A DNA stretch of 64,000 nucleotides, taken from Niastella koreensis GR20-10 (GTDB lineage: Bacteria; Bacteroidota; Bacteroidia; Chitinophagales; Chitinophagaceae). Below, in pieces: positions 2,985 to 59,632 of the stretch (positions within the stretch are counted from its first letter, which is position 1; each line of letters starts with the position of its first letter). The translations under genes were made by a program, and so were the position numbers. The stretch is from NCBI RefSeq assembly GCF_000246855.1, contig NC_016609.1:5654744-5718743 (forward strand), read 5' to 3'. Under the pieces are notes generated by a model. The model searched no databases. It saw nothing but the letters and a program-made list of their open reading frames with translations, and was not told the DNA's origin.

Positions 2985-3050
2985 TTAGGGACGATCAAAT
3001 AACTAATGGCCGTTGATAAAAAAAGGCCCTCCTACGCTAAAGCTTCGGCG

Positions 3051-3143
3051 GGCAAGGCAGACGGCAGGCGGCAAACGGCAAACAGCCCCGTCGCGGCAAC
3101 AAAGAACTCAGAACTGAGAACAGAGAACTAAGGACTAAGGACT
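3051..3143. repeat. quasi-repetitive spacer (GGCAAACGG and GAACT words)
   Basis: Two word families follow one another. The first is gcagacggcaggcggcaaa..., built on GGCAAACGG/GCAGACGG. The second is gaactcagaactgagaac followed by aaggactaaggacta. The first family is the same text that occurs inside prmC and fmt further along the window. No reading frame of note is present. Confidence 0.7.
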
Positions 3144-3171
3144 AAAAAAGCCTGGCATTACTACCAGGCTT
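3144..3171 (-). terminator. rho-independent terminator of the phosphatase gene
   Basis: An 8-bp stem AAGCCTGG/CCAGGCTT encloses an 8-nt loop and, read on the minus strand, is followed by a run of T. It lies 28 nt beyond the stop of the PafA-like gene. Confidence 0.8.
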
Positions 3172-7141: not shown

Positions 7142-7212
7142 AAAAAAAATAGCCTCCCGGAGGGGAGGCTGCACTAATCAAATACCATTAACCATTAAAC
7201 CTTATCCTATGA
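7142..7212 (-). ncRNA. candidate small RNA with intrinsic terminator
   Basis: Lies in a 456-base gap (7089-7544) between convergent genes. On the minus strand, TATATTTG at 7218-7225 (a good -7 box) is followed about 50 nt later by a perfect 8-bp stem AGCCTCCC/GGGAGGCT with a 4-nt loop (7151-7170) and then a run of eight T. This gives a compact transcript of about 70 nt with no open frame. Because the hairpin is nearly 375 nt from the stop of the thioredoxin-like gene, it is an unlikely terminator for that gene alone. The alternative is a leader left from a lost plus-strand gene, since ATGAAA at 7209 opens a five-codon frame. The remaining gap is AT-rich with no gene. Confidence 0.4.
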
Positions 7213-7285
7213 AAATTCAAATATAGTGTGAATATCTCAAAGCATAGGTCTTATCGTTATGAAATTTTATGCGTTGATAAGTATA

Positions 7286-8706: not shown

Positions 8707-8800
8707 ATATTGAATGTTGAATGTCCAATGTCGAATTAAATACAAAATGTAAAGATCAAATACTTCAAGATTCAATATTGGACATTCGATATTCGACATT
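8706..8800. repeat. inverted quasi-repeat spacer (class A words)
   Basis: Starts at the ubiX stop. The left arm is built of ttgaatgttgaatgtccaatgtcgaa. The right arm (about 8771-8800) contains ttcaatattggacattcgatattcgac, roughly the reverse complement of the left with several mismatches around the core ATTGGACATTC. The two arms could pair into a long imperfect hairpin. The same words recur near 36940, 40870, 50800, 53790 and 59445. Confidence 0.7.
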
Positions 8801-12192: not shown

Positions 12193-12405
12193 GAAAGAAG
12201 ACACAAGGAAATGCCCTGATACTATATGTTAACTTTTTGTTTGAAGAAGGAAAACCTGTTTCAGGTTTCAGGTTACAGGGGAAACAGCCTGTTACAACTT
12301 TGCATTCCCTGCAACCTGTAACTTGTAACCTGCAACCGGCATCAGGTAACCGGGAACGGCCCTACCATTGGCACATTAGCTAATTATCACATTAGCACAT
12401 TGTTC
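12172..12405. repeat. quasi-repetitive spacer between ftsK and the kinase gene
   Basis: A gap of about 296 nt with no gene. It is filled by three word families in series: aaggcacaag/agacacaagg (12178-12210), tttcaggtttcaggttacag and ctgcaacctgtaacttgtaac (12255-12345), and cacattagctaattatcac near 12370-12400. All three families recur elsewhere in the window. Confidence 0.7.
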
Positions 12406-14446: not shown

Positions 14447-14476
14447 GTTCCGAGTTCAGAGTTCCGGGTTCCAGGT
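14447..14476. repeat. short GAGTTCC-type quasi-repeat
   Basis: Between two convergent stops lies gttccgagttcagagttccg, a short run of agttcc words of the same style as the other spacers. It is the only sequence separating the kinase gene from the DUF423 gene. Confidence 0.55.
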
Positions 14477-18896: not shown

Positions 18897-18945
18897 AGTA
18901 TAGCCAAAGTATAGCCATCAGTTGACAAGTTAACACGTTGACATG
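18897..18945. repeat. quasi-repetitive spacer (class C words)
   Basis: Contains tatagccaaagtatagcca and then gttgacaagttaacacgttgac, the same word as at 40810 and in related form at 49590. It lies between the last operon stop and the double terminator. Confidence 0.6.
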
Positions 18946-18994
18946 ACGTTTCACGATCTTCAACTTGCAGTCAGCAGAGTCTTTGACTCGCTAC

Positions 18995-19038
18995 AACGGG
19001 TCCCTCCCCCGACCTTTAAATCGGGGGATCCCGTTTTA
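18995..19038 (+). terminator. terminator of the sigma-factor operon
   Basis: A strong hairpin: inner stem CCCCCGA/TCGGGGG around an 8-nt loop, extended by outer AACGGG/CCCGTT, followed by a short T run. Confidence 0.75.
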
Positions 19039-19042
19039 CAAT

Positions 19043-19079
19043 AAAAAAGGCCCCGACTAAATCGTCAGGGCCTTTTTTA
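19043..19079. terminator. bidirectional terminator
   Basis: Stem AAAAAAGGCCC/GGGCCTTTTTT with inner GAC/GTC. The symmetric A and T runs let it stop transcription from the sigma operon and from the DUF4302 gene arriving on the other strand. Confidence 0.85.
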
Positions 19080-29498: not shown

Positions 29499-29541
29499 TA
29501 TTTGCTAATGAGATAATGTGCTAATGCTAATGGAATTCAAT
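29499..29541. repeat. class B quasi-repeat between the OmpA and PorP genes
   Basis: tttgctaatgagataatgtg followed by ctaatgctaatgg: gctaat/gataat words of the same kind as at 37790, 40770 and 45490. It sits inside an apparently single transcription unit. Confidence 0.65.
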
Positions 29542-37788: not shown

Positions 37789-37832
37789 ATATGTGATAAT
37801 TTGATAATTAACTAATGTGATAATGGAATACA
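37789..37832. repeat. class B quasi-repeat upstream of the SDR gene
   Basis: tatgtgataatttgataatt followed by aactaatgtgataatggaat: gataat/ctaat words, the whole distance between the GDPD stop and the SDR start. Confidence 0.7.
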
Positions 37833-38775: not shown

Positions 38776-38926
38776 TGGAGAACCAATAGGCAATAGACAA
38801 TTGGCAATAAGCAACATCAAAATTCATGCTTATTTGTGAACTGCAGGTTATTGGAAAAACAAAAACAACAGGCAATAGTCAGGGCTTATAATTGCCCATT
38901 GTCTATTGCCCATTGTCAATTGGCTA
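38776..38926. repeat. class H quasi-repeat between the GDPD and Mrp genes
   Basis: Words ccaataggcaatagacaatt and ggcaataagcaac, then, after a gap, attgcccattgtctattgcc and cattgtcaattggctatt. The two parts are roughly inverted copies of each other and could pair. The right-hand part reaches the stop codon of the Mrp gene. A similar text occurs inside the RsmF-like gene. Confidence 0.7.
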
Positions 38927-40127: not shown

Positions 40128-40769
40128 ATGAAAAGACGTTTACTTTTTTTGATTTCCCTGGCGATTGCCATCCCCTTTGCTTCTAAAGCTCAGTTTGAAA
40201 AACTGAAAGACTCCGTAGTGCAATTATATGGCGTTGTAATGACGGCCGACAGTTTGAGGGCCATTCCTTCTGTTACTGTTATGATCAAAGGCCAGAACCG
40301 CGGTACCATCACCAATGAACAGGGTGTTTTCAGTATCGTGGTAATGAAAGGTGATATTGTTGAGTTTACGTCTATTGGCTATAAACCCAAGCTGGCCACC
40401 ATTCCCCGCAACCTGGAAGGCAATCAGTTCAGCTTGTTGCAATTGATGGTTACCGATACGGTTTACCTGCCGGCCACCATCATTAAACCACGCCCCACCA
40501 AAGAACAGTTTGAACGCGATTTTGTGAATGTCGATATTCCCGACGATGATCTGGAAACTGCCCGCAAAAATACCGATGAATCCAAACGCCGGGTGCTTGC
40601 CCGCACGCTCCCCCGCGACGGCCGCGAAAGTTCCAACATGTTTTTACGGAACAACGCTCAACGGTACTATTATAACGGACAAACACCTCCTCAGAACATA
40701 TTCAATCCCGCAGCCTGGGCTGAGTTTATTCAGGCGTGGAAGAGAGGGGATTTTAAGAATCAGAATTAG
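40128..40769 (+). CDS. secreted protein with a carboxypeptidase-regulatory-like domain
   Basis: A 213-residue protein with signal peptide MKRRLLFLISLAIAIPFASK ending near KAQ. The middle (about 30-110) is a carboxypeptidase-D-regulatory-like beta sandwich: LYGVVMTADSLRAIPSVTVMI, then GTITNEQGVFSIVVMKGDIVEFTSIGYK split by turns. The C-terminal half is charged and arginine-rich (DESKRRVLARTLPRDGRESS) and of unknown role. The start at 40128 is preferred to a longer frame from 40038, because the longer form would precede the promoter box. It is not a transporter, since it lacks the plug and barrel. Confidence 0.75.
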   Translation: MKRRLLFLISLAIAIPFASKAQFEKLKDSVVQLYGVVMTADSLRAIPSVTVMIKGQNRGTITNEQGVFSIVVMKGDIVEFTSIGYKPKLATIPRNLEGNQFSLLQLMVTDTVYLPATIIKPRPTKEQFERDFVNVDIPDDDLETARKNTDESKRRVLARTLPRDGRESSNMFLRNNAQRYYYNGQTPPQNIFNPAAWAEFIQAWKRGDFKNQN

Positions 40770-41102
40770 CTAATGTGATAATTTGATAATGTGCTAATGG
40801 AATACAATTGACAAGTTAACACGTTTATATAATTGGCCTCTGCATAATGCAGGGGCTTTTTCTTCACTTCAACATTCCATATTGGGCATTCAATATTCAA
40901 CATGCTGTATCCGCCTTTATCAACTCTGTCAACCCTATCAACGCTATCAACCTGTTAACCTATCAACTTGTCAACGTATTAACCGGTCAACCTGCATTTC
41001 CCTTTCTTATTCTTCCTTCCTGATTTTTCATTCTTCATTTCTCTGCCCTCTGCCCTGTATTCCATTTGCTAATTTTCACATTTGCTAATTTGTACATTGT
41101 CT
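40768..41102. repeat. dense block of quasi-repetitive spacer (classes B, C, A, J)
   Basis: A 376-nt gap filled almost entirely with degenerate words. In order: gctaatgtgataatttgata (B), gacaagttaacacg (C), a terminator (40835-40861), ttcaacattccatattgggc (A), tcaactctgtcaaccctatc and tcaacgctatcaacctgtta through tcaacttgtcaacg (C, about 40919-40998), cttcattcttc-type words (J), ctgccctctgccctg and catttgctaattttcacatt (B). It is the best single example of the family. Confidence 0.8.
40835..40861 (+). terminator. terminator of the carboxypeptidase-regulatory-domain gene
   Basis: Stem GCCTCTGCAT/ATGCAGGGGC with a 1-2 nt loop, followed by five T. It lies inside the repeat block. Confidence 0.7.
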
Positions 41103-44445: not shown

Positions 44446-45494
44446 GATGCCAGGGTTTGCGGGTTCACAAAATATTGGAGGGTATCTGAAAACAATGTTT
44501 CCTGGTGTAACAGCTGGCCGGTTTGCATGCGTGGTGCAGGTAAACCCTGCGGCACCACCAGTTCGTTATTGGTGATGATGCGTATTTCATCCCACATGCC
44601 TTCATCGATAAACGATTGCAGCAATTGCGCCCCGCCTTCCACCAGCACACTCTGGATCTTTAACTGGTATAATGCATGCACTAGCTGATGAACAAGGCTT
44701 ACATCCTGCGTTACCTGGTAATACAGCAGGTTCTCTTTTTCCTCCTGCTTTACACTGTTGAACACAATGGTTTTCACCTGCTGGTTAAACAGCTGTAACG
44801 ATGACGGCAATCGCAAATTCATATCTACCACCAGCCGCATCGGATCGGGCCCATTCCATAAACGGGTGGTCAATGCCGGATCGTCAAAAAGCGCGGTATT
44901 GGTGCCTACCAGGATGGCCGCTTCTTCACTGCGCCATTTATGCACCAGCCGGTTAGTAAATTCATTGCTAATCAACAGGCGTTCCCCGCCAGCTTCCCCC
45001 GCCATTTTCCCATTGGCTGTTTGGGCCCATTTTAAAATGAGGTAAGGACGGTGTCGGGTATTGAAAGTGATGAACCGTTTATTGAGGGTTTTACAATCCT
45101 GTTCCAGCACACCCAGGGTAACCTTCACCCCGGCGGCTTTTAATTTTTCCACTCCTTTGCCATCCACCTGTTTAAACGGATCGCGCACGCCTATAACCAC
45201 TTCGGGGATCTTTTTTTCAATGATCAGATCGGCGCAGGGCGGTGTTTTGCCAAAATGCGCACAAGGCTCCAGCGACACATACATAACCGATTGGGCAATC
45301 AAATGCCGGTCGGCTTGGGCTACCGAATTTACGCAGTGCACTTCGGCATGCGGACCGCCATATTTTTGATGGTACCCCTCCCCTATGATGCGGTTTTCGT
45401 GCACCAGCACCGCGCCTACCATGGGGTTGGGCGCTACGTAGCCTGCCCCGGCTTTCGCCAGTTCAATACAACGCTGCATGTATGATTCGGTCAA
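44442..45494 (-). CDS. ribD: bifunctional riboflavin biosynthesis protein RibD
   Basis: A 350-residue enzyme with an N-terminal cytidine-deaminase-like domain and a C-terminal reductase. The zinc site is GGPHAEVHCVNSV (HAE) plus SLEPCAHFGKTPPCADLI (PC...PPC). Upstream, YVAPNPMVGAVLV is the family start. The reductase domain follows from about residue 145 with LKWAQTANGKMAGEAG, AAILVGTNTALFDDPALTTR and VLVEGGAQLL. It converts the GTP cyclohydrolase II product through deamination and reduction. Other rib genes are not in this window. Confidence 0.94.
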   Translation of the reverse strand: MTESYMQRCIELAKAGAGYVAPNPMVGAVLVHENRIIGEGYHQKYGGPHAEVHCVNSVAQADRHLIAQSVMYVSLEPCAHFGKTPPCADLIIEKKIPEVVIGVRDPFKQVDGKGVEKLKAAGVKVTLGVLEQDCKTLNKRFITFNTRHRPYLILKWAQTANGKMAGEAGGERLLISNEFTNRLVHKWRSEEAAILVGTNTALFDDPALTTRLWNGPDPMRLVVDMNLRLPSSLQLFNQQVKTIVFNSVKQEEKENLLYYQVTQDVSLVHQLVHALYQLKIQSVLVEGGAQLLQSFIDEGMWDEIRIITNNELVVPQGLPAPRMQTGQLLHQETLFSDTLQYFVNPQTLAS

Positions 45495-45536
45495 TGTGAT
45501 AATGTGATAATTTGCTAATACGATAATGGAATACAG
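45491..45536. repeat. class B quasi-repeat upstream of ribD
   Basis: tcaatgtgataatgtgataa and tttgctaatacgataatgga: gataat words that run up to the ATG of ribD and into its first codon. The ribD promoter must lie in or across them. Confidence 0.65.
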
Positions 45537-45586: not shown

Positions 45587-46480
45587 ATGACGTTCTACGA
45601 AGCGCAACAGCAATTGCAAAAGGCCCTGACTGAATTGTATGATGACCGCGAGGCGGCCAATATTGCCGACTGGGTAATGGAGCATGTTACCGGACTGCGC
45701 AAAATTGATCGCATTATCCATAAGCAGTCGCCCCTGGCCCCTGAAAAGGTGAACCTGCTACAGGAATACACCCGGCAATTGCTGACCCATAAACCGGTGC
45801 AATACGTTTTACACGAGGCCTGGTTTTGTGGAATGCCTTTCTATGTGGATGAGAATGTGTTGATTCCGCGACCGGAAACGGAGGAGCTGGTGGAGTGGGT
45901 ATCTGCAATCGGCAATCGGCATTCGGTAGACGGCAAACGGCAGACGGCAGAAACGCTTCGCATTTTGGATGTTGGTACGGGAAGTGGATGTATACCGGTT
46001 TCTTTAAAGAAGAAACTGCCGCAGGCAGAGGTGTATGCCTGTGATGTAAGTGAAGGGGCGCTGGCGGTGGCGGCGCGTAATGCGGCGGCTCAGGAAACGC
46101 CTGTTAATTTTATTAAGATTGATTTTTTAGATGCGGGTAGCTGGTCATTGCTCCCGGAGGTTGATATTATCGTAAGTAACCCGCCCTATATTCCGCAAAG
46201 CGATAAAAACACCATGTTCCAAAATGTGCTGGCCCATGAGCCACACCTGGCTTTGTTTGTGCCCGATAATGATGCCCTGGTGTTCTATGACGCCATTGCG
46301 CGTTTTGCGCAAAGTAATTTGGTTAGCCAGGGTTGTGTTTTTGTAGAAATTCATGAGGAACTGGGTCAAAAAACAAAGGAGTTGTTTGAAGGGAAAGGGT
46401 TTTATGCGGAGGTAAAGAAGGACTTTCAGGGGAAGGACAGGATGGTGAAGGCAGTTCTCAGTTCTCAGTTCTCAGTTTAA
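45587..46480 (+). CDS. prmC: release factor glutamine methyltransferase PrmC
   Basis: A 297-residue SAM-dependent methyltransferase that methylates the GGQ glutamine of peptide release factors. Seen are the N-terminal helical domain, VLIPRPETEELVEWV, the SAM-binding loop ILDVGTGSGCIPV and the catalytic NPPY in IIVSNPPYIPQ. The ATG at 45587 is chosen over a TTG at 45578. A near -7 box (CATCTTTG, 45573-45580) stands 6 nt before it. Odd feature: between EELVEWV and ILDVGTGSG lies an extra stretch, SAIGNRHSVDGKRQTAET, longer than the usual linker and encoded by a quasi-repeat like those in intergenic DNA. The C-terminus also ends in a tcagttctcag repeat. Confidence 0.93.
   Translation: MTFYEAQQQLQKALTELYDDREAANIADWVMEHVTGLRKIDRIIHKQSPLAPEKVNLLQEYTRQLLTHKPVQYVLHEAWFCGMPFYVDENVLIPRPETEELVEWVSAIGNRHSVDGKRQTAETLRILDVGTGSGCIPVSLKKKLPQAEVYACDVSEGALAVAARNAAAQETPVNFIKIDFLDAGSWSLLPEVDIIVSNPPYIPQSDKNTMFQNVLAHEPHLALFVPDNDALVFYDAIARFAQSNLVSQGCVFVEIHEELGQKTKELFEGKGFYAEVKKDFQGKDRMVKAVLSSQFSV
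45903..45951 (+). repeat. quasi-repeat inside prmC
   Basis: Coding bases gcaatcggcaatcggcatt and then gacggcaaacggcagacg. The last 23 nt (45929-45951) match 59082-59104 in fmt with one mismatch. It keeps the reading frame and lies in a linker between the two PrmC domains. Confidence 0.75.
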
Positions 46481-46728
46481 AGTTCAAGGTTTACTATTTT
46501 CAGTTTATTCGACCCTGTTTTCAACTGAAATCGGGGTGTTTTCAGTTGGCAGCATACCGTTTCTAACTGAAAATGGGGCGTTTTCAGTTGGCAGCATACC
46601 GTTTCTAACTGAAAATGGGGCGTTTTCAGTTGGTAGCGTACCGTTTCTAACTGAAAACGGGTCGATTTCAGTTGGTGGCGTACTGTTTCTAACTGAAAAC
46701 AGGGTGTTTTCAGTTGGCAGCGCACCAT
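46477..46728 (-). CDS. possible heptad-repeat small protein
   Basis: An 83-residue open frame made almost wholly of alternating heptads QLKTPxF and QLETVxx. The two heptad types use different synonymous codons (CAA CTG against CAG TTA) and keep exact phase, as expected if the peptide were selected. It is in frame with the upstream membrane protein gene (46759-47253) after a tandem TAA TAA, and the heptad text already starts directly after those stops. Its own stop overlaps the prmC stop. It may be only a by-product of a structural DNA repeat. No signal peptide or family is known. Confidence 0.3.
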   Translation of the reverse strand: MVRCQLKTPCFQLETVRHQLKSTRFQLETVRYQLKTPHFQLETVCCQLKTPHFQLETVCCQLKTPRFQLKTGSNKLKIVNLEL

Positions 46729-46757
46729 TTTAAACTGAAATCGGGGTGATTTCAGTT
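46497..46757. repeat. 42-bp tandem repeat array of hairpin-forming units
   Basis: TTTTCAGTT (or ATTTCAGTT) recurs at 46497, 46539, 46581, 46623, 46665, 46707 and 46749, exactly 42 nt apart with no indel. Between copies lies AACTGAAAA, so each junction AACTGAAAA-7 nt-TTTTCAGTT is an inverted repeat with a 9-bp stem. Each 42-nt unit is itself two diverged 21-nt halves. Loops and spacers vary. No CRISPR-like unique spacers are present. Confidence 0.9.
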
Positions 46758-50684: not shown

Positions 50685-50836
50685 AAAACAGCTGCAGGCC
50701 ACAAGCAAATACAGGCTGAAAGCCGAAAGGTTAAAGCTAAAAGCAAATACACTCCGGTTTTGGCTTTGGCCTTTACCCATTAGGCTTTAACCCGTTTTCT
50801 TCACTTCAACATTCGATACTCACTATTTTTTCTATC
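50685..50836. repeat. class E/A quasi-repetitive spacer (copy 1)
   Basis: acagctgcaggccacaagc, ggctgaaagccgaaaggtta, then ctccggttttggctttggcc and taggctttaaccc followed by ttcacttcaacattcgata. From 50753 to 50815 it is nearly the same as 53744-53806. The rest contains degenerate agctgaaagc words. Confidence 0.75.
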
Positions 50837-50838
50837 TC

Positions 50839-53642: not shown

Positions 53643-53661
53643 GGTAGAGCCGCTGTTACTA

Positions 53662-53697
53662 AAATGCCATCCTGACTAAGTTGGGATGGCATTTTTC
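53662..53697 (+). terminator. terminator of the type A sorted protein gene
   Basis: Stem AATGCCATCC/GGATGGCATT with an 11-nt loop, followed by TTTC. 20 nt after the stop codon. Confidence 0.85.
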
Positions 53698-53702
53698 TTT
53701 GG

Positions 53703-53908
53703 GCGAGAACAGCTGCAAGCTGTAAGCTGCAAACAAATACAATTCCGGTTTTGGCTTTGGCCTTTAACCTTTAGGCTTTAACCCATTTTCTTCACTTCAA
53801 CATTCAATATTTATAAAGAATAATCTCCCCCCCTTCGATTCAGCTGCCTTCCTTTTGCGTTTTACCTGTAACCTGTAACTTTTCCTTACTATCTACTTGC
53901 TTATCTTA
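53703..53908. repeat. class E/A/F quasi-repetitive spacer (copy 2)
   Basis: Contains acagctgcaagctgtaagct, ccggttttggctttggcct and ttaggctttaaccc, ttcacttcaacattcaat, then ctgtaacctgtaactttt near the end. The central part repeats 50753-50815 closely. It lies between convergent genes and reaches the pepT stop. Confidence 0.75.
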
Positions 53909-53912
53909 TTAA

Positions 53913-57595: not shown

Positions 57596-57655
57596 TGGTG
57601 GAGGTGGGATGCAGGAAGTTGAAAAGTTGATAGCGTTGATATAGTTGATAAGGGA
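57596..57655. repeat. class C quasi-repeat
   Basis: gaagttgaaaagttgatagc and gttgatatagttgataaggg. The matching reverse word ctatcaaccttatcaac stands at 57761-57783, so the two sides of the terminator between them could pair. Lies in the 266-nt gap before the FKBP gene, which has no gene. Confidence 0.6.
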
Positions 57656-57733: not shown

Positions 57734-57784
57734 CTAACATAATTACTTATTATTTGTCCCCGCTATCAACCTTATCAACTAATG

Positions 57785-58240
57785 TTACGGCATGATAATA
57801 CGGGAAGGAGCTGCGCCAATTTCAACCAGTTCAATATCAAAAACCAGGTCTTCACCGGCCAAAGGATGGTTGGCATCCAGCATTACATTTTCTTCACCTA
57901 TTTCGGTAACCACTACAGGAATTACGTGTCCTTCAGAGTTGGTCATATTCAACCGCATGCCTACTTCCAGTTCCATATCTTCAGGAAACTCGGTCACGGG
58001 GAAGGCAACGATCATATCGGGGTTTTTAGGACCATAAGCTTCGGCAACCGGGATGTTGATGGTTCTTTTATCACCTACTACCATTCCCATAACACCATTG
58101 TCGAAACCAGGAATAACCATTCCGCTTCCTACTTCAAATTGCAGCGGTTCACGGCCTGCAGAGGAATCGAAAGTTGTTCCATCGGTTAAACGGCCATGAT
58201 AATGAACTTTTACAGTATCGCCGCTTTTTACTTGTTGCAT
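57785..58240 (-). CDS. SlyD-like FKBP-type peptidyl-prolyl cis-trans isomerase
   Basis: A 151-residue cytosolic isomerase/chaperone. The FKBP domain has GDTVKVHYHGRLTDGTTFDSS, then GSGMVIPGFDNGVMGMVVGDKR, interrupted by an IF (insert-in-flap) chaperone domain (PVTEFPEDMELEVGMRLN), and closes with DANHPLAGEDLVFDIELVEIG, the SlyD signature. The histidine-rich metal tail of E. coli SlyD is missing. A longer open frame continues upstream to 59185, but it is the reverse of fmt and not coding. The start at 58240 (MQQVKSGDTV) is the natural one. Confidence 0.92.
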   Translation of the reverse strand: MQQVKSGDTVKVHYHGRLTDGTTFDSSAGREPLQFEVGSGMVIPGFDNGVMGMVVGDKRTINIPVAEAYGPKNPDMIVAFPVTEFPEDMELEVGMRLNMTNSEGHVIPVVVTEIGEENVMLDANHPLAGEDLVFDIELVEIGAAPSRIIMP

Positions 58241-58418
58241 ATAAACTTTATTAGTATTTAAAATTGTAAGGAAAGCCAATCTCCCGTCCCACATCGCCGT
58301 ATCCGCTTGAGAGCTGGTGAATAGAAGCGAGAAAATAAAAAGCCCAATTCCCTTGGCTGCAAAGTAAAAGGAATATTTTGGGGCAGCCAATAAAAGTTTT
58401 TTATTGACATTTGGGGCC

Positions 58419-58463
58419 AAAAGGCACAAGCGACAAGGTTTAAGACACAAGAAAATACAAGGA
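58419..58463. repeat. class I quasi-repeat upstream of fmt
   Basis: aaaaggcacaagcgacaagg followed by taagacacaagaaaatacaa: the same acaagg words as at 12178-12210 upstream of ftsK, and in the same direction relative to the gene start there only after inversion. Confidence 0.6.
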
Positions 58464-58466
58464 AAA

Positions 58467-59435
58467 ATGACAGAAAATACACAACAATCAAATATCATAC
58501 CCCGCATCGTATTTATGGGCACGCCCGAATTTGCCGTAGCCTCACTCGATGCGCTGGTGCAGGCCGGGTGTAACATTGTAGGGGTAATTACCGCACCCGA
58601 TAAACCAGCAGGCCGGGGCATGAAATTAACCGAAAGCGCCGTAAAGAAATATGCTGTTGAAAAACAGCTGCACATTCTGCAACCGGTTAAGCTGAAAGAC
58701 CCATTATTCTTAGAAGAACTAAAGAACCTGCACGCCGATCTGCAGATAGTAGTGGCGTTTCGTATGTTGCCCGAAGTGGTTTGGGACATGCCGCCTATGG
58801 GCACCATTAACCTGCATGGCTCGCTGTTGCCACAATACCGCGGTGCGGCGCCCATTAACTGGGCGGTGATAAATGGTGAGAAAGAAACCGGTGTAACCAC
58901 CTTTAAACTGCAGCACGAAATTGATACCGGCAATATTCTGTTACAGGACAGTTTTCCTATTGGCGATGATGAAACCGCCGGTGAAGTGCATGATAAAATG
59001 AAAGAGATCGGGGCACGGTTGCTGGTGAAAACGGTAGAAGGTTTGGCGAAAGGCACGTTAATAGAAATGCCGCAGGAGGCAGACGGCAAACGGCAAACGG
59101 CAGACATAAATAAAGAACTAAAGCACGCACCTAAGATCTTCACTGAAACCTGTGAGATTGACTGGAAGAATTCTATAAATTCCATTTATAATCTCATACG
59201 AGGCTTATCCCCCTACCCCGCTGCATTTACGCGACTGGATGCGAAAATTCTGAAAATATATAAGGCAAAGAAGGAGCTGCACAATGCCCCTAAAAGCGCC
59301 GGTTCATTTGAAACAGACAATAAAACCTATCTTAAGTTCGCCGGTTCCGATGGTTATATTTATGTTACCGAGCTGCAGCTGGAAGGAAAGAAACGAATGA
59401 CTATTGAAGAGTTTTTGAGAGGATACCGGTTTTAA
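58467..59435 (+). CDS. fmt: methionyl-tRNA formyltransferase
   Basis: A 322-residue enzyme that formylates initiator Met-tRNA using 10-formyl-THF. Motifs: IVFMGTPEFAVASLDALV, TAPDKPAGRGMKLTESAVK, GTINLHGSLLPQYRGAAPINWAV (catalytic N/H/D region), DTGNILLQDSF, and the C-terminal tRNA-binding domain beginning near the LKHAPKI segment. The start at 58467 fits homologues better than a longer frame to 58404. Odd feature: between the catalytic and C-terminal domains lies the stretch QEADGKRQTADINKELKH, in which EADGKRQTAD is encoded by quasi-repeat text shared with prmC. Homologues have a shorter or different linker there. Confidence 0.93.
   Translation: MTENTQQSNIIPRIVFMGTPEFAVASLDALVQAGCNIVGVITAPDKPAGRGMKLTESAVKKYAVEKQLHILQPVKLKDPLFLEELKNLHADLQIVVAFRMLPEVVWDMPPMGTINLHGSLLPQYRGAAPINWAVINGEKETGVTTFKLQHEIDTGNILLQDSFPIGDDETAGEVHDKMKEIGARLLVKTVEGLAKGTLIEMPQEADGKRQTADINKELKHAPKIFTETCEIDWKNSINSIYNLIRGLSPYPAAFTRLDAKILKIYKAKKELHNAPKSAGSFETDNKTYLKFAGSDGYIYVTELQLEGKKRMTIEEFLRGYRF
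59082..59104 (+). repeat. quasi-repeat inside fmt
   Basis: Coding bases gacggcaaacggcaaacgg then caga, differing by one base from 45929-45951 in prmC, in the same reading frame and giving the same peptide DGKRQTA. It sits in the linker between the two Fmt domains. Confidence 0.75.
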
Positions 59436-59570: not shown

Positions 59571-59632
59571 ACTCTTTGCTTTAGGCTTTTGCCTTTAAGC
59601 TGTATTCGCCTGAAGCTTGTAGCTTGCTGCTT
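59571..59632. repeat. class E quasi-repetitive spacer
   Basis: tgctttaggcttttgccttt and aagctgtattcgcctgaagc then ttgtagcttgctgcttaa: aagct/gctt words, up to the stop of the LysM gene. Confidence 0.55.

Follow-up and report, generated by a model that had tools for sequence, protein, structure and literature searches.

Arrays of degenerate 7-9-nt words in Niastella koreensis spacers: dispersed, often hairpin-forming repeats with rapid turnover

The intergenic DNA of the soil bacterium Niastella koreensis GR20-10 contains many arrays of short degenerate words in tandem. We analysed them in a window of 64,000 nt, i.e. the whole stretch of DNA under study (G000:C1:5654744-5718743; G000 denotes this genome, a single contig of 9,033,684 bases), in larger samples of the genome, and in its relatives. 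The spacer at window positions 40768-41102, flanked by the genes for a CarboxypepD_reg-like protein and a 3-hydroxyacyl-CoA dehydrogenase, was the starting point. Ten Niastella genomes (G000-G009) were compared, most closely G000 with G005, G009 and G007. Our results suggest that the arrays are dispersed modules with fast turnover that often form hairpins, arise mainly from replication errors and are mostly tolerated rather than selected, a reading to which we assign a probability of roughly 0.5.

Unit size and recurrence of the arrays

Degenerate tandem words were found at most of the places where a preliminary description of the window had located them, by sequence inspection, by Tandem Repeats Finder (TRF, run on the window) and by an array criterion, i.e. 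12 of 14 positions matching in a sliding window. The unit of 8-12 nt given in that description has to be corrected to the measured 7-9 nt, and its "cacaagg" words (12178, 58419) did not pass the array criterion. Genes were defined as the longest open reading frames (ORFs), without a gene finder, and the choice of start may hide arrays close to start codons. One call was erroneous: the ORF at 57785-59185 overlaps fmt (58404-59435), and 59186-59435, counted as spacer, is fmt coding DNA.

To quantify the periodicity, exact 5-mer self-matches at each lag were compared with dinucleotide shuffles. For the 30 spacers of the window (6,533 b), the z-scores were 14.9 at lag 7, 5.6 at lag 8 and 6.9 at lag 9, followed by multiples of these lags (9.5 at 14, 7.9 at 16, 4.1 at 18 and 5.0 at 21). 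The remaining lags from 2 to 23 gave values of only -0.7 to 1.3. For 282 spacers from 459 kb of G000, the quotients of observed and shuffled matches were 10.2, 4.1 and 1.9 at lags 7, 8 and 9, respectively, and 0.69-1.25 at lags 4-6 and 10-13; lags 15, 20, 22 and 25, which are sums of 7, 8 and 9, were slightly raised (z about 3). In a control of 150 genes the quotients were 1.02 at lag 7 and 0.87 at lag 8, and codon multiples alone were raised. The array criterion yielded 83 arrays at lag 7, 38 at lag 8 and 11 at lag 9, compared with 0-4 at each of the lags 4-6 and 10-13 and fewer than one per lag in shuffles. Altogether, 130 of the 523 spacers in 859 kb of G000 carry arrays.

About a dozen word families were delimited by eye in G000. 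Their variable positions differ in freedom: N is never C in 43 matches to AGTNGT, it is C or T in all but 2 of the 51 matches to TTCAANA, and it takes all four bases in AGTTCNG. The same words recur far beyond single spacers. We counted 456 12-mers that are present in at least four spacers, whereas the range was 4-6 across five shuffled sets and 1-9 across three sets of coding fragments without overlap, so that the comparison with shuffled controls proposed in the preliminary description turned out in favour of the words. The corresponding 14-mers numbered 528 in spacers versus 1-14 in non-overlapping coding fragments; these fragments replaced a coding control drawn with replacement, which was inflated (31 12-mers, 405 14-mers). 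A blastn comparison among 548 spacers gave 393 matching pairs involving 141 spacers, versus none in one shuffled set, and in 292 of the 393 pairs both spacers carry arrays. Of the best ectopic copies, one pair, in spacers 3 kb apart, has 98% identity over 110 bp and another has 93% over 118 bp.

Related copies tend to lie near one another. In the set of 131 array spacers, 14 of 532 pairs less than 20 kb apart and 52 of 7,983 pairs farther apart gave strong matches, i.e. 45 or more identical bases, and 34 sharing pairs lie within 20 kb, versus 18.1 +/- 4.1 after permutation (maximum 34 in 500). For single families, against a null of uniform placement, 19 of 33 AGTTC loci lie no more than 20 kb from another one (random mean 4.5, maximum 14 in 2000), as do 13 of 35 AGTNGT loci (P 0.0066) and 14 of 40 TTCAANA loci (P 0.017). 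Because families recur, near-identical copies exist and related copies cluster, the arrays are not independent products of local slippage.

Hairpins, gene context and turnover

The preliminary description had the words occurring in both orientations, which is correct, but their distribution is not random: G-rich words tend to lie at the left and C-rich words at the right of a spacer. The 8-mers from the left third of a spacer that recur inverted in its right third numbered 317, versus 88.6 +/- 16 after permutation (maximum 140 in 300). For 192 array spacers of G000 and three sister genomes, the best inverted match had a mean score of 13.1 versus 8.0 in shuffles, and 99 versus none reached at least 12. 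A complementary partner (score at least 10) was found in the same spacer for 113 of 284 arrays and in a random spacer for 11. GC skew, which superseded a polarity count of 120 versus 23 based on families delimited by eye, showed that 37 of 39 paired 5' arms in G000 are G-rich and 28 of 37 paired 3' arms are C-rich; the respective values for the three sister genomes were 19 of 22 and 14 of 15. Predicted folds are strong in several cases, e.g. -63.1 kcal/mol for 97 nt of RNA at B127507 and z-scores of -2.5 to -3.8 for three window hairpins folded as DNA. No fold was predicted for the lone array at 40770-40800 as DNA. Several spacers share, over 65-95 bp, both the arms of the AGTAGTGAG subfamily and its imperfect palindromic core, of which GGCTCGCGATTATTTAG in C143960 is an example; B127448 and C143960 are 91.6% identical over 95 bp.

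The frequency of array-bearing spacers in the 859 kb depends on gene orientation. It is highest for convergent genes (36 of 95), intermediate for codirectional genes (78 of 310, i.e. 29 of 116 and 49 of 194) and lowest for divergent genes (16 of 118). That the words directly join stop or start codons, as described earlier, applies more often to the stop side, where 38 of 116 codirectional arrays lie within 12 nt; the start side is rarer, with 11 of 116. In four orthologous sets (A197182, A198049, A256786, A265428) inspected by eye, words reach the last codons or the stop codon. Arrays were also found within the coding sequences of PrmC and Fmt (Table 1), and their families differ between orthologues that are 69-83% identical. 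The PrmC linker contains GGCAGAGG and GGCAATGG words in G005 and G009 and TTACCTCC words in G007; the Fmt linker contains almost nothing in G005, CAATCGG words in G007 and a different dispersed repeat in G009.

The comparison of orthologous spacers suggested in the preliminary description revealed a rapid turnover. Syntenic spacers formed 192 pairs with G005, G009 and G007; in 110 of these both spacers had at least 60 nt, with arrays in both (24), in one (25) or in neither (61). The median matched fraction of the longer spacer was 0.49-0.61 with arrays, 0.69-0.80 without arrays and 0.54 after shuffling, i.e. array spacers match their sister genomes about as poorly as shuffled sequences do. Some sites of arrays or hairpins correspond to spacers of 0-6 nt in other species. 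In three examples (A184574, A175173, A253487) both arms have clearly changed family together. Whole families are species-specific: the AGTTC triple-unit pattern has 105 matches in G000, five in G005 and none in the other eight genomes (one of them 61% complete), and its reversed control has none in G000 and up to eight in other genomes. Conversely, an AGAAGTA pattern is absent from G000 and reaches as many as 131 matches in G008, where a single long array accounts for many of them.

A patchy distribution of this period, with different words, was seen elsewhere in the Chitinophagaceae and in Pontibacter. Pooled over 28 relatives, the observed and shuffled matches were 489/136 at lag 7, 261/133 at lag 8 and 215/142 at lag 9, compared with 177/143, 180/143, 155/137 and 141/130 at the flanking lags 5, 6, 10 and 11.

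Possible origins and relation to known repeats

The preferred reading can be formulated as a sequence of steps. Words would grow into arrays by tandem slippage that favours steps of 7-9 nt, i.e. the measured period. Slippage fits unit growth because adjacent units are slightly more alike than second neighbours (0.862 versus 0.848, 72 arrays, p = 0.017) and because the composite shared by the 98% pair of spacers has at its end an AGAACT array, long in one copy (C154406) and short in the other. A nascent array might then fold back and be copied, which would produce its inverted partner; if G-rich nascent arrays always became the 5' arm, the polarity would follow. Modules would be copied to other spacers by template switching or ectopic recombination, preferably within about 20 kb, and would overwrite older filler between stop codon, terminator and promoter, which could explain why orthologous spacers contain different families and why species have bursts of their own. 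Selection would mostly remove modules and leave survivors at gene 3' ends, C-termini, interdomain linkers and in convergent spacers, while they are rarest in divergent spacers.

Several observations weigh against this sequence of events. The null of the single-family clustering assumes uniform placement while spacer density is uneven, and for TTCAANA loci a limit of 10 kb gave no clustering (P 0.23). Inverted copies do not predominate among the strong near matches (14 direct and 9 inverted, compared with 32 and 31 for far copies), and direct sharing between the spacer ends is raised as well (184 versus 74 +/- 13). No partner at the threshold used was found for 171 of the 284 arrays. Lone arrays in G000 keep a weaker polarity of the same sign and array-free spacers are faintly skewed in the same sense (+0.07/-0.08), so that fold-back is not the sole cause of the polarity. 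Fold-back predicts that a module's own arms mirror each other best, and the effect is small: the value was 0.63 for own arms and 0.58 for arms of other copies in the same genome, higher in 26 of 43 cases (p = 0.027). The joint change of family by both arms, evident in the three examples, does not emerge from counts of 8-mers. When both orthologues have arrays, arms share any 8-mer in 11 of 48 cases within and 10 of 48 across genomes (68 versus 47 8-mers); when one has arrays, the values are 10 of 50 and 7 of 50 (52 versus 18 8-mers).

The preliminary description attributed the spacers to slippage or repeated local copying under some selection, of which only slippage as a mode of unit growth is retained. 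Local copying alone fails because words recur in non-homologous spacers, many arrays have inverted partners, and spacers are rewritten between species. Purely local neutral slippage in each spacer, without copying between loci, would agree with the slightly greater likeness of adjacent units and with a long near-perfect GGCAGAC array in an orthologous G005 spacer, but the recurrent 12-mers, the near-identical copies of 118 bp and 110 bp in non-homologous spacers and the inverted partners make it very improbable, and we strongly disfavour it. Selection is not supported because arm mismatches have no clear excess of G-T over A-C (67 and 58 in codirectional spacers, 60 and 44 elsewhere) and terminators are not significantly lost. 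Ordinary terminators accompany arrays in 16 of 61 convergent spacers versus 30 of 75 without arrays (p = 0.10) and in 11 of 107 codirectional spacers versus 54 of 335 (p = 0.16). These values argue against selected RNA hairpins at transcript 3' ends, i.e. terminators or mRNA stabilisers whose arm complementarity is kept by selection, as do the 0-6 nt spacers at some orthologous gene pairs, the words in protein-coding linkers and the absence of any Rfam match at gathering score within the window. Of the array spacers no longer than 600 nt, 192 in number, 27 had terminator-like sites, and the arrays do not form a class of intrinsic terminators. The preference for stop-proximal and convergent positions and the strong predicted folds would suit such hairpins, which we nevertheless regard as improbable.

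A further explanation is that the heptamer arrays are the ends of miniature elements mobilised in trans by a transposase, e.g. of the Y1/IS200 type, comparable to miniature inverted-repeat transposable elements or to REPINs, i.e. hairpin-forming doublets of repetitive extragenic palindromic (REP) sequences. The dispersed, palindromic layout, the species-specific bursts and the arms and core shared within the AGTAGTGAG subfamily would be expected of mobile elements. Y1 genes were located in G000 and 58 relatives. Among the 28 relatives compared for periodicity (8-40 kb each; G016, G043, G052 and G053, with 1-5 kb, were left out), an excess of at least 6 per kb was found in 8 of the 20 that have a Y1 gene and in none of the 8 that lack one, which is suggestive only; one of the eight, G036, owes it to a TTG microsatellite. 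An IS200-type Y1 gene (L177; A182941-183369, genome about 5622941-5623369) has one strong match in each of the ten Niastella genomes, and in nine of them, with the exception of G009, a GTGAATC/GGCAATC/GTGAATGG hairpin with related words adjoins it. On the other hand, arrays lie within 700 nt of just 2 of 19 Y1 loci, which are mostly of the REP-associated tyrosine transposase (RAYT) type, and by eye no arrays adjoin the RAYT-like pair of G000, so that mobilisation by RAYTs is not supported. Present/absent pairs inspected by eye have ragged ends, and neither fixed ends nor a target-site duplication were noticed. A strict core consensus of the AGTAGTGAG family had no match in the G000 sample, about a dozen families face two Y1 matches in the genome, and related copies cluster regionally. 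Taken together, mobile elements appear to be an unlikely but not negligible origin. Dispersed and palindromic as they are, the arrays do not show the REP/RAYT feature tested, and to that extent the earlier statement that they are not REP elements is correct.

Alternatively, a dedicated enzyme with a fixed step, similar to a reverse transcriptase (RT) or terminal transferase, could make or template the words. The narrow range of units, which extends to other Bacteroidota and is 7 nt in Xanthomonas and Nostoc according to the parts of PMC4692102 used here, would fit, and so would the limited variation of AGTNGT and TTCAANA, although AGTTCNG contains all four bases. No candidate was found, and we consider such an enzyme quite improbable. 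Ku is encoded in the ten Niastella and in 26 of 59 genomes, and it is missing from the array-rich G030, G054 and G058. SbcD_C was likewise considered as a candidate repair gene. None of the ten Niastella carries it, and it occurs in 4 of 59 genomes. The three carriers measured (G014, G024, G027) have few arrays and the eight array-rich relatives all lack the gene, but most array-poor genomes lack it too, and therefore it does not discriminate. A broader conjecture is likewise doubtful. It holds that Bacteroidota have an as yet unrecognised way of writing DNA in inherent steps of 7-9 nt, by which hairpin cassettes are continually built and rewritten in their spacers, gene tails and domain linkers, and that the cyanobacterial and Xanthomonas heptamers have the same origin. 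The search for element genes, which covered the families Y1 and RVT_1, gave three RT matches in G000. Two adjoining RT matches about 1.1 kb apart (G000:C1:7487833-7490264) resemble a two-RT defence locus.

Heptameric simple-sequence arrays, such as the short tandemly repeated repetitive (STRR) heptamers of cyanobacteria, are 7-nt tandem arrays next to gene ends, with units that largely follow one consensus word per genome. We conclude that the Niastella arrays are a form of such heptameric array repeats with a REPIN-like layout, i.e. inverted doublets forming hairpins in extragenic space, for which the RAYT test failed. Tandem 7-nt units are over-represented in the spacers, as are 8- and 9-mers, but many families with internal variants take the place of one consensus word; a few near-perfect arrays exist (G005). 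The layout is not that of clustered regularly interspaced short palindromic repeats (CRISPR), as judged without a CRISPR program: the units are degenerate and run head to tail without spacers.

The cross-phylum comparison rests on published descriptions. In the parts of Rehm et al. (2015, PMC4692102) used here, the GGGAATC and GGGGA(C/T)T heptamers of Xanthomonas and Nostoc are degenerate, mostly intergenic arrays. Those of Xanthomonas lie near the upstream ORF (mean 28 nt) and form 70 and 75 inverted pairs in two species. Under-representation between divergent genes and strong differences in length and sequence among related species are also described, and a polymerase-footprint hypothesis is passed on as well. 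Period, inverted pairs, strand rule, placement at the upstream ORF and scarcity in divergent spacers are shared. In contrast, these parts deal with a single G-rich family per genome that can form quadruplexes, and inverted pairs were few in Nostoc. Niastella has about a dozen families with three unit sizes and with anchors and cores that recur, and many of the families have no G-runs; families replace one another at orthologous sites, occur as ectopic copies and have invaded coding linkers. The TAACTGA arrays (MacGregor 2015, PMC4679880, consulted in part) are 7-nt tandem arrays beside gene ends that occur in five Bacteroidetes too, where some spacers contain other heptamers and relatives have no repeats there. 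They consist of one exact word, which in the main species usually precedes a start codon directly, and, unlike in Niastella, hairpin units or family turnover do not appear in the portion consulted. REP/REPIN sequences with RAYTs (Bertels and Rainey 2011, PMC3116915, in the part used) are also dispersed, extragenic and paired into hairpins, but the Niastella arrays have no RAYT proximity, arms of 7-9-nt tandem words, several unrelated families and regional clustering. For template-switch hairpins, a single replication event can yield a reverse-complement arm; the part of Monttinen and Loytynoja (2022, PMC8794818) used here describes no coupling to heptamer arrays or dispersed families.

New in comparison with the known heptamers are the many families, the hairpin units, the ectopic copying and the rapid replacement, whereas period and placement were already known. 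Among the open-licence literature matches listed, judged from titles and abstract openings, no description of such arrays in Niastella was found. The arrays could help to explain why 7-letter repeats are common in bacterial genomes; this over-representation has been noted before, and a tested cause was not found in the portions of the literature consulted for comparison. The process can be measured in a genome that has about a dozen families of three neighbouring unit sizes, shows polarity of the arms and regional spread, and can be compared with nine sister genomes. The case also illustrates how repeat words can turn into the C-termini and interdomain linkers of proteins, in this instance the translation enzymes PrmC and Fmt.

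The spacer at 40768-41102 and further features of the window

The features of the spacer and of the remaining window are listed in Table 1. The first unit of the spacer, 40770-40806 (37 nt), has no counterpart at the same site in G005, G009 and G007. In G005 and G009 the terminator and the promoter side are retained and the filler is different, i.e. a long near-perfect GGCAGAC array with CTACAGC words in G005 and GAGTAGT words in G009. GATAAT-like words follow the stop codon in G001-G004 and G008, and in most of these genomes, as judged by eye, inverted ones precede the start codon; the contig of G006 reaches only the promoter side. The segment 40858-40975 is the 118-bp sequence with the 93% identical copy, which lies in the spacer at genome positions 5637185-5637302. 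A Pseudobacter spacer upstream of the same dehydrogenase gene (L011 5830-5999) has a 34-bp perfect inverted repeat at both ends, as seen by eye.

Table 1. Word arrays and associated features in the window (positions in the window)
Position	Strand	Feature	Remarks
3056-3083	+	GGCARAC heptamer array	TRF and array criterion
3102-3145	+	AGAACTN / ACTAAGG heptamer array	TRF and array criterion
8707-8800	.	TTGAAT heptamer hairpin	left array 8710-8732, inverted 8777-8796; DNA fold -13 kcal/mol, z -2.5
12255-12340	.	GGTTTCA/GGTTACA hairpin	left array 12255-12280, inverted 12308-12329; DNA fold z -3.8
12366-12402	-	CATTAGCA octamer array, GATAAT family inverted	TRF and array criterion
14452-14472	+	AGTTCNG heptamer array	family nearly confined to N. 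koreensis
18920-18939	+	GTTGAC/GTTAAC octamer array	array criterion
29499-29540	+	GATAAT-family words ending in GGAATTC	array part 29506-29526
37790-37832	+	GATAAT-family octamer array with anchor GGAATACA	array criterion
38783-38923	.	CAATAGG heptamer hairpin	arrays 38783-38814 and 38890-38922; DNA fold z -3.1
40770-40806	+	GATAAT-family octamer array ending in anchor GGAATACA	starts at stop codon of upstream gene
40807-40823	+	GTTGAC/GTTAAC octamer words	common to orthologous spacers of G005, G009, G007
40837-40862	+	intrinsic-terminator-like hairpin and T-run	kept in G005, G009; filler downstream not kept
40862-40903	-	TTCAAC-family heptamer words, right C-rich polarity, anchor TTCACTTCAAC	
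40916-40994	-	TATCAAC-family 9-mer and 8-mer array	TRF and array criterion
41004-41056	-	TTCATT and CTCTGCC heptamer words	
41063-41098	-	inverted partner (ATTTGCTAATTTTCACATTTGCTAATTTG) of GATAAT array	reverse anchor TGTATTCC just ahead
45490-45535	+	GATAAT-family octamer array with anchor GGAATACA	array criterion
45901-45951	+	GGCAATC/GGCARAC heptamer array in PrmC coding sequence	linker between PrmC_N and methyltransferase domain (Pfam)
46452-46477	+	CAGTTCT heptamer array encoding final PrmC residues	
49617-49642	+	GTTGATAGC 9-mer array	TRF and array criterion
50685-50838	.	composite of AAGC words, CAAATACA linkers, GGCTTTA words and TTCACTTCAAC words	
53710-53800	.	second AAGC - AAATACAATTCCGG - GGCTTTA - TTCACTTCAAC composite	
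57617-57650	+	GTTGATAGC 9-mer array	inverted TATCAAC words 57764-57779 at far end of spacer
59078-59102	+	GGCAAAC heptamer array inside Fmt	interdomain linker (Pfam)
59575-59630	-	GCTTTA / AAGCTT words linked by reverse anchor TGTATTCGCC	

At the site of the CAATAGG hairpin, G005, G009 and G007 have hairpins of the GGTTACC/GGTTTCA type instead. The first AAGC composite matches three further composites, A178835, A197182 and A268386, the last of which corresponds to window positions 53643-53912.

Some other repeats and conserved blocks were observed. A 42-bp tandem array at 46519-46757, just 3' of prmC, has 5.7 copies with 87% match (TRF score 324), and its unit carries an internal inverted repeat, CTGAAAAC...GTTTTCAG. 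A dispersed GGCCCTCCTACGCTAAAGCTTCGGCGGGC repeat occurs at 3020-3060 and in other spacers, and G009 has it in frame within its Fmt linker (RGPSYAKASAGD). At 18960-19060, AACTTGCAGTCAGCAGAGTC...CTACAACGGG ahead of a terminator is kept in G000, G005, G009 and G007, and the adjacent filler differs in each genome. A non-coding block at 7150-7260, with a terminator-like CCTCCCGGAGGGGAGG followed by ACCATTAACCATTAAACCTTATCCTATGAAAATTCAAATATAG, has no Rfam match and is near-identical in G000 and G007 within diverged surroundings; its ACCATTA array is present in G005 and G009 too, and the block is perhaps a small RNA or a leader.

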